Assembly (NCBI GenBank): GCA_029861425.1
Contig: JAOTZH010000010.1
Coordinates: forward strand, 1-41,981
Source: Gemmatimonadota bacterium
GTDB lineage: Bacteria > Gemmatimonadota > Gemmatimonadetes > Palauibacterales > Palauibacteraceae
DNA length: 41,981 nucleotides
Reading direction: 5' to 3'
Positions within the stretch are counted from its first letter, which is position 1, and each line of letters opens with the position of its first letter. Below the pieces are notes generated by a model. That model searched no databases, was not told the DNA's origin, and saw only the letters and a program-made list of their open reading frames with translations. The position numbers were made by a program, and so were the translations under genes. This document shows positions 38,365 to 41,104 of the stretch, in pieces.

Positions 38365-39471
38365 ATGAAAGCACCCTCGCTCACGCTCGGAATCGAAGAG
38401 GAATACCAGGTCGTCGATCCGGAGTCCCGGGAGCTCACCTCGTACATCACCGAGATCCTCGGTTCCGACCACCTCGTGCTTCGCGAGCAAATGAAGCCCG
38501 AGCTGCACCAGTCGGTCGTCGAGATGGCCAGCACGGTCTGTGACAACGTTCAGGAGGCGCGGGCCGAGGTCGTGAAGATGCGCGGCCTCGTCTCGTCGAA
38601 GGTGGCGGAGAGCGGTCTCCGGATCGTCGCCGCGGGAACTCATCCGTTTTCGAACTGGACGGAGCAGGAGATCACCCCTCTCGAGCGCTACATCGGGCTC
38701 CGGGAAGACCTGCAGGAAGTCGCGGCTCGCAACCTGATCTTCGGGATGCACGTGCACGTGGGGATCGAGGACCGGGAGTTCCTGATCGACGCGATGAATG
38801 TCTCGCGTTACTTCCTGCCGCACGTCCTGGCGCTGTCGGCGAGCTCGCCCTTCTGGGAGGGCCGCCACACGGGGCTCCATTCCTACCGGACCATCAACTG
38901 GACGAACTTCCCGCGGACAGGACTTCCACTGACGTTCGAGTCGTACGGAGAATACGAGTACCTGATCGACACGCTCGTGCGCGCCAATACGATCCCCGAC
39001 TCGAGCAAGATCTGGTGGGACGTCCGACCCAACCACAGCTATCCGACGCTCGAGTTCCGGATCTGCGACATGTGCACACGCGTCGAGGAAGTGGTGTGTG
39101 TCGCCGCGATATTCCAGGCGCTGGTCGCGAAGCTCTGGAAGCTCCGCCGGGACAACCTGACGTTCAGGCAGTATCCGACCCCGCTCATCGCGGAGAACAA
39201 GTGGCGAGCGGCGCGTTACGGCACGACCGGAAAGCTCATCGACTTCGGGAAGCAGGTCGAGAAGCCCGCCCCCGAGCTGATCCGCGAGTTCATCGGGTGG
39301 TTCCTGGATGACGTGGTGGACGACCTCGGGTCCCGCGCCGAGGTCGAGTACGCCCTGCAGATTCTCGAGAACGGCAGCAGCTCGCAGCGTCAGATCGCGG
39401 TCTTCGAGGAGACCGGCGATCTCAAAGCGGTCGTCGACCACCTGATCGCGGAGACGGCCGAAGGCGTCTGA
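38365..39471 (+). CDS. YbdK-type carboxylate-amine ligase (glutamate-cysteine ligase GCS2 family)
   Basis: MKAPSLTLGIEEEYQVVDPESRELTSY, EQMKPELHQSVVEMAS, FGMHVHVGIEDREF, WWDVRPNHSYPTLEFRICDMCTR, ENKWRAARYG. Confidence 0.92.
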   Translation: MKAPSLTLGIEEEYQVVDPESRELTSYITEILGSDHLVLREQMKPELHQSVVEMASTVCDNVQEARAEVVKMRGLVSSKVAESGLRIVAAGTHPFSNWTEQEITPLERYIGLREDLQEVAARNLIFGMHVHVGIEDREFLIDAMNVSRYFLPHVLALSASSPFWEGRHTGLHSYRTINWTNFPRTGLPLTFESYGEYEYLIDTLVRANTIPDSSKIWWDVRPNHSYPTLEFRICDMCTRVEEVVCVAAIFQALVAKLWKLRRDNLTFRQYPTPLIAENKWRAARYGTTGKLIDFGKQVEKPAPELIREFIGWFLDDVVDDLGSRAEVEYALQILENGSSSQRQIAVFEETGDLKAVVDHLIAETAEGV

Positions 39472-39498
39472 GACGCACTCCGCGGCAGCCGGGCGCTA

Positions 39499-39520
39499 AA
39501 CCCCGCGCCGAAGCGGGGTT
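39499..39520 (+). terminator. Terminator-like hairpin after the carboxylate-amine ligase
   Basis: AACCCCGC-gccgaa-GCGGGGTT perfect 8-bp stem, 28 nt after the stop. No strong T-tract. Confidence 0.5.
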
Positions 39521-39532
39521 CCGTGTCGCGAG

Positions 39533-39548
39533 TGGCACCCCCCTTGCT
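39533..39548 (+). promoter_or_regulatory. Sigma-54 type -24/-12 promoter motif
   Basis: TGGCAC-CCCCC-TTGCT matches the TGGCAC-N5-TTGCW consensus at exact spacing, in an intergenic region upstream of the gene at 39684. Confidence 0.6.
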
Positions 39549-39683
39549 CCTCCCCGACTTCGGTGACGCGCTGTCGGGCGAGCGGTGGGACCCGCGGAGA
39601 CGTGGCTCTGTGCCCGTTTCAACCCACCCGCAAGCCCGGTGGCACGTCCCACTCGAGCAGGTCCCCGGACAGGGGATCTGGCA

Positions 39684-40205
39684 ATGCGCCAAAACCTTGC
39701 AGGACGAGTGAGTGTCATGCGCGATTTGTCGATGGATGACGGGTTCGGGCTCCCAGAGATCGACGCCGGTGAGGACGTCGACATGCGGGCCGAACAGGTG
39801 AACGACATGGACGTGAGCGACGTGGCCGTAGAGGGCCTCGACGCCGGGTTCGACTTTCTGGACAACGTCGACCCGATGAACGAGGTGAACGGCGCGGAGC
39901 CGGACGCCGTCCAGGTCGCGGAGGAGTCGATCGAGGGGATCACCGAAGAAGACGTCGCCGAATTCCGCTCGGGCTGGGCGGACATCCAGGCGAGCTTCAT
40001 CGATGATCCGCATCGGGCGTGCGAGCAGGCCGACAACCTGGTCGATCTCGTGCTCAAGCGTCTGACGGAGCGTTTCGCTCGCGAGCGAAACGACCTCGTT
40101 CGGGCGTGGGATCGCGGAAGCGAGCCCACCGACACCGAGGATCTCCGGGTCGCGATCAAGGGCTATCGCGGACTCGTCGACAGGCTGCTCACCACGCAGC
40201 TGTAG
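39684..40205 (+). CDS. Conserved hypothetical protein with acidic N-terminus
   Basis: ATG 39684 (MRQNLAGRVSVMRDLSMDD) or 39717. Asp/Glu-rich N-terminus. C-terminus VAEFRSGWADIQASFIDDPHRACEQADNLVDLVLKRLTERFARERNDLVRAWDRGSEPTDTEDLRVAIKGYRGLVDRLLTTQL. Confidence 0.75.
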   Translation: MRQNLAGRVSVMRDLSMDDGFGLPEIDAGEDVDMRAEQVNDMDVSDVAVEGLDAGFDFLDNVDPMNEVNGAEPDAVQVAEESIEGITEEDVAEFRSGWADIQASFIDDPHRACEQADNLVDLVLKRLTERFARERNDLVRAWDRGSEPTDTEDLRVAIKGYRGLVDRLLTTQL

Positions 40206-40345: not shown

Positions 40346-41104
40346 ATGAGCCCTCAACGATTCGCTCGCTCGCTGATCCGCGTTGTCTCAGTTGTGGCCC
40401 TGGCCGCGTTTACGGGCCTGACGGGCTGTTTCCAGATGGAGTATGCCGTCGAGCTCGAGGAGGACCTTTCCGGCGAGGTCGCGTTCGATCTGATGGTGGA
40501 TCTCGACCGGATGGCGTACGGCGTGGCGGCGGTGCAGAAGAGCTTCATGGGCGATGACGGCTCACCGACGGATGAGGAGGTCGAGGCCTCTCGCCAGGAG
40601 CTGCTCGACCAGGTGGATTCGGGGGTTCTCGAGGAAGACAATCTCCGGGCCGAGATCGATCCGGATCTCCCGCCAGGGGTGACGCTGCTCGAAACAACCC
40701 AACGACGAGACGGGCTACGGACCGAGGTGTCGATGCGCCTCGCGTTCGATCACCTGACGTCCCTGAACGCTGTCGATTTTGGGGCGGACGGCGGGGGTGG
40801 ACCGGACGCCGAGCCGTTCGCCGGAATCGAGCTCGTGGACGAGGGCGACACGTTCGTCCTCCGCAACGAGCCGATGAACCCGCTCGAGGAAGTCGAGGAC
40901 GAGGCCGGCGGGATGGACGGGATGGACGGGTTGATCGAGATGATGTTCCAGGACCTCTCGGTCGCCTTCGTCATCGCCGCGCCCTTCGAGATCGTCGAGC
41001 ACAACGCTTCCTCGCGAGAAGGGGACCGGCTGCGCTGGGTCTACGACTACGAGGCACTGGCTGCGGGGCTCGATAACCGAATCTTCGTGCGGTACCGGAA
41101 GTAG
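40346..41104 (+). CDS. Lipoprotein, LppM/DUF3153-like
   Basis: SD gaccggaggaag. MSPQRFARSLIRVVSVVALAAFTGLTGCFQMEYAVELEEDLSGEVAFDLMVDLDRMAYG: lipobox LTGC and the LppM-style beta domain start. Confidence 0.7.
   Translation: MSPQRFARSLIRVVSVVALAAFTGLTGCFQMEYAVELEEDLSGEVAFDLMVDLDRMAYGVAAVQKSFMGDDGSPTDEEVEASRQELLDQVDSGVLEEDNLRAEIDPDLPPGVTLLETTQRRDGLRTEVSMRLAFDHLTSLNAVDFGADGGGGPDAEPFAGIELVDEGDTFVLRNEPMNPLEEVEDEAGGMDGMDGLIEMMFQDLSVAFVIAAPFEIVEHNASSREGDRLRWVYDYEALAAGLDNRIFVRYRK

Follow-up and report, generated by a model that had tools for sequence, protein, structure and literature searches.

The gap in front of an acidic protein gene of a Gemmatimonadota bacterium contains what looks like an exact sigma-54 promoter, and this raises the question of whether these few letters constitute a genuine promoter and, if so, what kind of message and product it would serve. 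The window, i.e., the whole stretch of DNA analysed (41,981 nt), comes from a 3.85-Mb MAG assembly of 291 contigs. The sequence TGGCACCCCCCTTGCT at 39533-39548 of the forward strand comprises TGGCAC, the spacer CCCCC (39539-39543) and TTGCT, and its GG-N10-GC spacing is exact, as the initial annotation had read it. It is placed in the 245-bp gap between the glutamate-cysteine ligase gene and the acidic ORF (Table 1).

Table 1. Features of the locus, with coordinates in the window and the basis of each assignment.
Feature	Position	Strand	Basis
Glutamate-cysteine ligase family 2 (GCS2), upstream gene	38365-39471	+	Pfam PF04107, E=1.8e-61
G+C-rich hairpin AACCCCGC-GCCGAA-GCGGGGTT, terminator-like, no T-run	39499-39520	+	Sequence
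-24 element TGGCAC	39533-39538	+	Sequence; conserved in five relatives
-12 element TTGCT	39544-39548	+	Sequence; TTGCC in congener, WTGC in other family
Predicted transcription start	39559	+	Promoter geometry, C39547 = -12; uncertain by a few bases
Candidate structured RNA	39562-39650	+	Independent folds of both species agree
TGGCACG half-motif, 3' arm of long stem	39640-39646	+	Sequence, fold
Second leader hairpin CAGGTCCCC-GGACA-GGGGATCTG	39658-39680	+	Fold
162-aa acidic protein	39717-40205	+	Gene caller, congener alignment
Next gene, putative lipoprotein (lipobox LTGC, weak sub-threshold LppM match)	40346-41104	+	

Perfect TGGCAC-N5-TTGCW sites are scarce: there is one in the window and there are two in the whole genome, in which the reversed pattern was found 8 times, and at the control rate about 0.05-0.1 such sites would be expected by chance in a 42-kb window. 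When TGGCAC-N5-TTGC was searched in 17 genomes of the genus, 31 sites were obtained versus 116 for the reversed control, indicating that the motif is depleted in these genomes. With G013 set aside because its gene calling failed, 13 of 24 motif sites, compared with 4 of 29 for the control, were intergenic and had a gene on the same strand starting no more than 400 bp downstream (Fisher p=0.003); the same comparison for any intergenic position gave p=0.0003. The motif letters are by themselves weak evidence, and it is the genomic position together with the conservation that makes the call of this predicted promoter strong.

The machinery for using such a promoter, which the initial annotation had proposed to look for, is encoded in the genome. 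It includes a complete RpoN (487 aa, E=4.7e-65) with the RpoN box ARRTVAKYR, and eight enhancer-binding proteins whose sigma-54 activation domain (PF00158) scored above 200 bits. Among the relatives carrying homologs of the acidic protein, rpoN was detected in the congener G004 and in G135, G383 and G426, and none was detected in G417 (77% complete) or G059 (55% complete), both of which are incomplete MAGs. The approximately 60 bp between the upstream stop codon and the -24 element could not be aligned with the congener and hold no conserved block; further upstream the sequence lies inside the GCS2 gene. Literature searches found no studies of sigma-54 regulation in Gemmatimonadota.

Six other genomes carry homologs, and in five of them the homologous gene or operon is preceded by an exact GG-N10-GC -24/-12 site. 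In the congener, whose ortholog is 62% identical to the window protein, the site (TGGCACCCGGCTTGCC) lies 182 bp upstream of the gene, the corresponding distance in the window being 184 bp. The remaining four genomes come from another family of the class (two genera), and in them the site precedes either the gene or an operon of membrane-anchored and soluble paralogs. It is found at -94 in G135 (TGGCACCGCTGATGCA) and at -72 in G383 (TGGCACCCAAGATGCA), G417 (TGGCACCCATGATGCC) and G426 (TGGCACCGGCCATGCG). Because all such sites number only 6, 2, 3 and 2 in G135, G383, G417 and G426, respectively, a chance site near a given gene is improbable, and our own arithmetic puts the chance of one falling within 250 bp of it at about 0.5-1.5 in 10,000 per genome. 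The -12 element varies among the homologs (TTGCT, TTGCC, ATGC). The only homolog without the site is that of G059, the 55% complete genome in which rpoN was undetected. Most members of the genus do not have the acidic-protein gene. A search of several hundred genomes of the class and phylum recovered homologs of its C-terminal domain in no more than five genomes besides the congener. Wherever rpoN was detected, the Gemmatimonadota members of this protein family are preceded by a predicted sigma-54 promoter. Since this promoter is conserved across two families, the link between sigma-54 and the protein family is old. All these results, i.e., rpoN, the activators and the -24/-12 elements that five other genomes from two families retain in front of their homologs, support the sigma-54 reading that had been put forward from the letters, including the conservation by which it was to be checked.

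The limits of the transcript and of its coding region were also considered. The initial annotation placed the start codon at ATG 39684, giving a leader of about 125 nt. However, the congener has no ATG equivalent to that one, and an in-frame TGA is present just upstream of its equivalent of ATG 39717. As its frame is closed by this stop between the two equivalent positions, ATG 39684 was rejected, the gene starts at ATG 39717, and the leader becomes about 158 nt. A coding leader (the 62-aa ORF at 39523-39711) was likewise discarded, its frame being broken by 1-nt indels between the species. The upstream GCS2 gene adjoins the locus across the genus. The terminator-like hairpin that had been noticed behind it does exist, but it has no T-run, was not called in a terminator scan and is absent from the congener. 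The putative lipoprotein gene downstream is probably not part of the unit, since it is absent at that place in the congener.

The predicted leader can fold into an element of about 90 nt, overlooked in the initial annotation, which begins 3-4 nt past the predicted start in both congeners. It is formed by a long imperfect stem, an invariant 7-nt/2-nt internal loop (ACCCGCG / AA) and an apical hairpin, GAGACGUGGC...GCCCGUUUC. The G004 leader, folded independently, gave the same architecture, which there begins 3 nt past the start predicted for that species, and a covariance model built from the window sequence alone matched the congener with 57 bits (E=3e-8 per genome). Four pairs are changed on both sides between the species in a compensatory manner, and 98% of the cells were paired versus about 40-48% when the partners were slid. 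In the leader core, 32 of 34 positions are identical versus 44-47% at fourfold-degenerate sites of the neighbouring genes. When the differences between the species were shuffled, folds as stable as the real one appeared in 0.6-7% of the trials, depending on direction and alignment. RNAalifold gave z=-6.4 on the structure-fitted alignment, a value biased by the fit, and a weak z=-1.6 on the sequence-only alignment, in which the apical hairpin is misplaced by one base. For this reason, the support is taken from the independent folds and the difference-shuffling, and it argues moderately, from two sequences, for a leader structure conserved with compensatory changes. The initial annotation had also pointed to a second half-motif near 39640. 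The TGGCACG is indeed there, but it is better read as one arm of the RNA hairpin, and the congener does not preserve the letters TGGCAC there. At about the place of the second leader hairpin, a different hairpin is predicted in the congener.

Neither species gave a family match in Rfam 15 or anything near the gathering score, and a known Rfam cis-regulatory RNA or riboswitch was consequently rejected. A covariance search of 149 related genomes recovered the element only in the two congeners; three weak matches (L068-L070) looked like chance on inspection, and at the homolog loci of other families nothing rose above noise. The leaders of the other-family homologs are much shorter, with the coding region only about 45-65 nt after the promoter, so the folded element seems to be an addition of the window lineage.

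Alternatively, 39562-39650 could act as DNA instead of as a folded leader, for example as an inverted repeat or a downstream enhancer to which the activator binds. As DNA the arms are likewise an inverted repeat, and a core with 32/34 identity would suit a protein-binding site. However, the outer arms diverge in sequence between the species yet keep pairing (difference-shuffling 0.006-0.07), the element begins right at the predicted transcription start, and the asymmetric internal loop and the GU pairs look like RNA, all of which makes a DNA site rather unlikely. It is clearly improbable that the sigma-54 promoter chiefly yields a small RNA, with the protein read from a different start: although independent small RNAs typically have a folded element directly at their start site, no terminator was found between the element and the ORF, and in the other family the coding region follows the same promoter after the short leader given above. 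Finally, a chance match of the 11-letter consensus in G+C-rich intergenic DNA, with transcription from another promoter, is highly improbable, for although a single match proves nothing when the motif is no commoner than its reverse in the genome (2 vs 8), its position and spacing recur before the homologs of five additional genomes from two families, such sites are rare in the other-family genomes (2-6 per genome), the genus sites sit preferentially upstream of genes, and a scan of 39400-39760 found no sigma-70-type promoter.

The explanation that we favour, to which we assign a probability of about 0.9 as a whole, is therefore a genuine sigma-54 promoter at 39533-39548 giving a message with a folded leader that encodes the acidic protein from ATG 39717. 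An activated enhancer-binding ATPase would melt the promoter and transcription would begin near 39559. The message would open almost at once with the folded element of about 90 nt, followed by the second hairpin, and would then encode the small acidic protein. In the other family of the class, the corresponding target would be a two-gene operon in which the C-terminal-domain family is accompanied by a membrane-anchored paralog. Within this explanation we infer that the unit is transcribed and from which position, which activator acts on it and in response to what signal, and what the leader does, most likely message stabilisation or translation control. A doubtful extension is that the message starts with a so far undescribed class of structured regulatory RNA sensing a ligand, temperature or a protein, as a second layer of control on a stress-type protein in this lineage.

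The initial annotation described the product as an uncharacterised acidic protein, and neither it nor the relatives scanned matched any Pfam or NCBIfam model. Its N-terminal half is acidic and probably disordered, and its C-terminal domain is helical, with AlphaFold2 helices at residues 77-94, 98-132 and 140-159 and pLDDT of about 60-83 over most of that domain. Fold comparison of the low-confidence model (mean pLDDT 57) against the PDB gave no significant match, the weak ones including the all-helical CsoR, and a PDB sequence search yielded marginal matches only. No homologs were found in viral contigs. The C-terminal domain is also present in Streptomyces plasmids, where it adjoins a membrane-type paralog. 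A two-gene operon of membrane-anchored and soluble paralogs, which have an unnamed domain in common, was observed at L103 (G059), L104 (G135), L111 (G417), L112 (G426) and L131 (Streptomyces).

Other sigma-54-type sites were seen in these genomes, the gene names at the genus sites (L029, L030, L038, L039, L042 and L048) being given by eye from the translations. The only other perfect site in the genome of the window, TGGCACCATCGTTGCA at L042 (G000:C288:9981-9996; same locus as L003), is 68 bp upstream of a glycosyltransferase gene that stands behind a flippase-like gene. Sites located 84-103 bp upstream of lipoprotein-like proteins with repeated carboxypeptidase-regulatory-like units occur in three congeners (L029, L030, L038), and another serves a TonB/SusC-like receptor gene (L039). 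At 1501 of L048 (G012), TGGCACGGATCTTGCT precedes a gene for an Hsp20-like small heat-shock protein by 109 bp, which suggests sigma-54 control of stress proteins in the genus. In the other family, TGGCACCTCGCTTGCC is found 49 bp upstream of orthologous hydrophilic proteins of approximately 80-90 aa in G417 (L122) and G135 (L128), a putative further conserved target. The sigma-54 control and small hydrophilic companions of this kind (L122, L127, L128) suggest that the acidic protein has a conditional role, perhaps related to stress or the envelope; judging from the company it keeps, our guess would be that one of these two is probable.

The locus thus unites RpoN, activators, promoter and target family, and the link between promoter and target survives across families. 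It places an uncharacterised protein family that also occurs in Streptomyces under a switch that stays off until an activator acts, and this makes the condition under which the protein is used testable. The folded leader would be the novel part of the locus, as a specific candidate for a new RNA element.

Compared with the structured 5' leaders in Rfam, the element shares the leader position, a stable stem, an invariant internal loop and apical hairpin, and covarying arms, but it occurs in two species only and no ligand or expression platform was identified. With the unnamed domain family of Streptomyces and Gemmatimonadota, the window protein has in common the pattern W..IQ..F.D.P.....A..LV....R.......L...W..G...TE.LR.A...YR...RLL, but it stands alone, with a longer acidic N-terminal half and no neighbouring membrane paralog. 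The usual sigma-54 targets are nitrogen, flagella and exopolysaccharide genes, and the gene of the window is not among them (compare PMC3162934). A broad survey concluded that the cell exterior is what sigma-54 chiefly controls in bacteria (PMC3162934), in line with the membrane-anchored paralog and the site at the glycosyltransferase gene. With sigma-54 promoters of the form TGGCAC-N5-TTGCW the locus shares both elements, their spacing, RpoN with its activators, the intergenic upstream position and the conservation across species, the difference being the ATGC of the -12 element in the other-family homologs. Overall, the promoter is of an ordinary kind, its link to an uncharacterised protein family is unusually well conserved, and a candidate RNA element is added to it.
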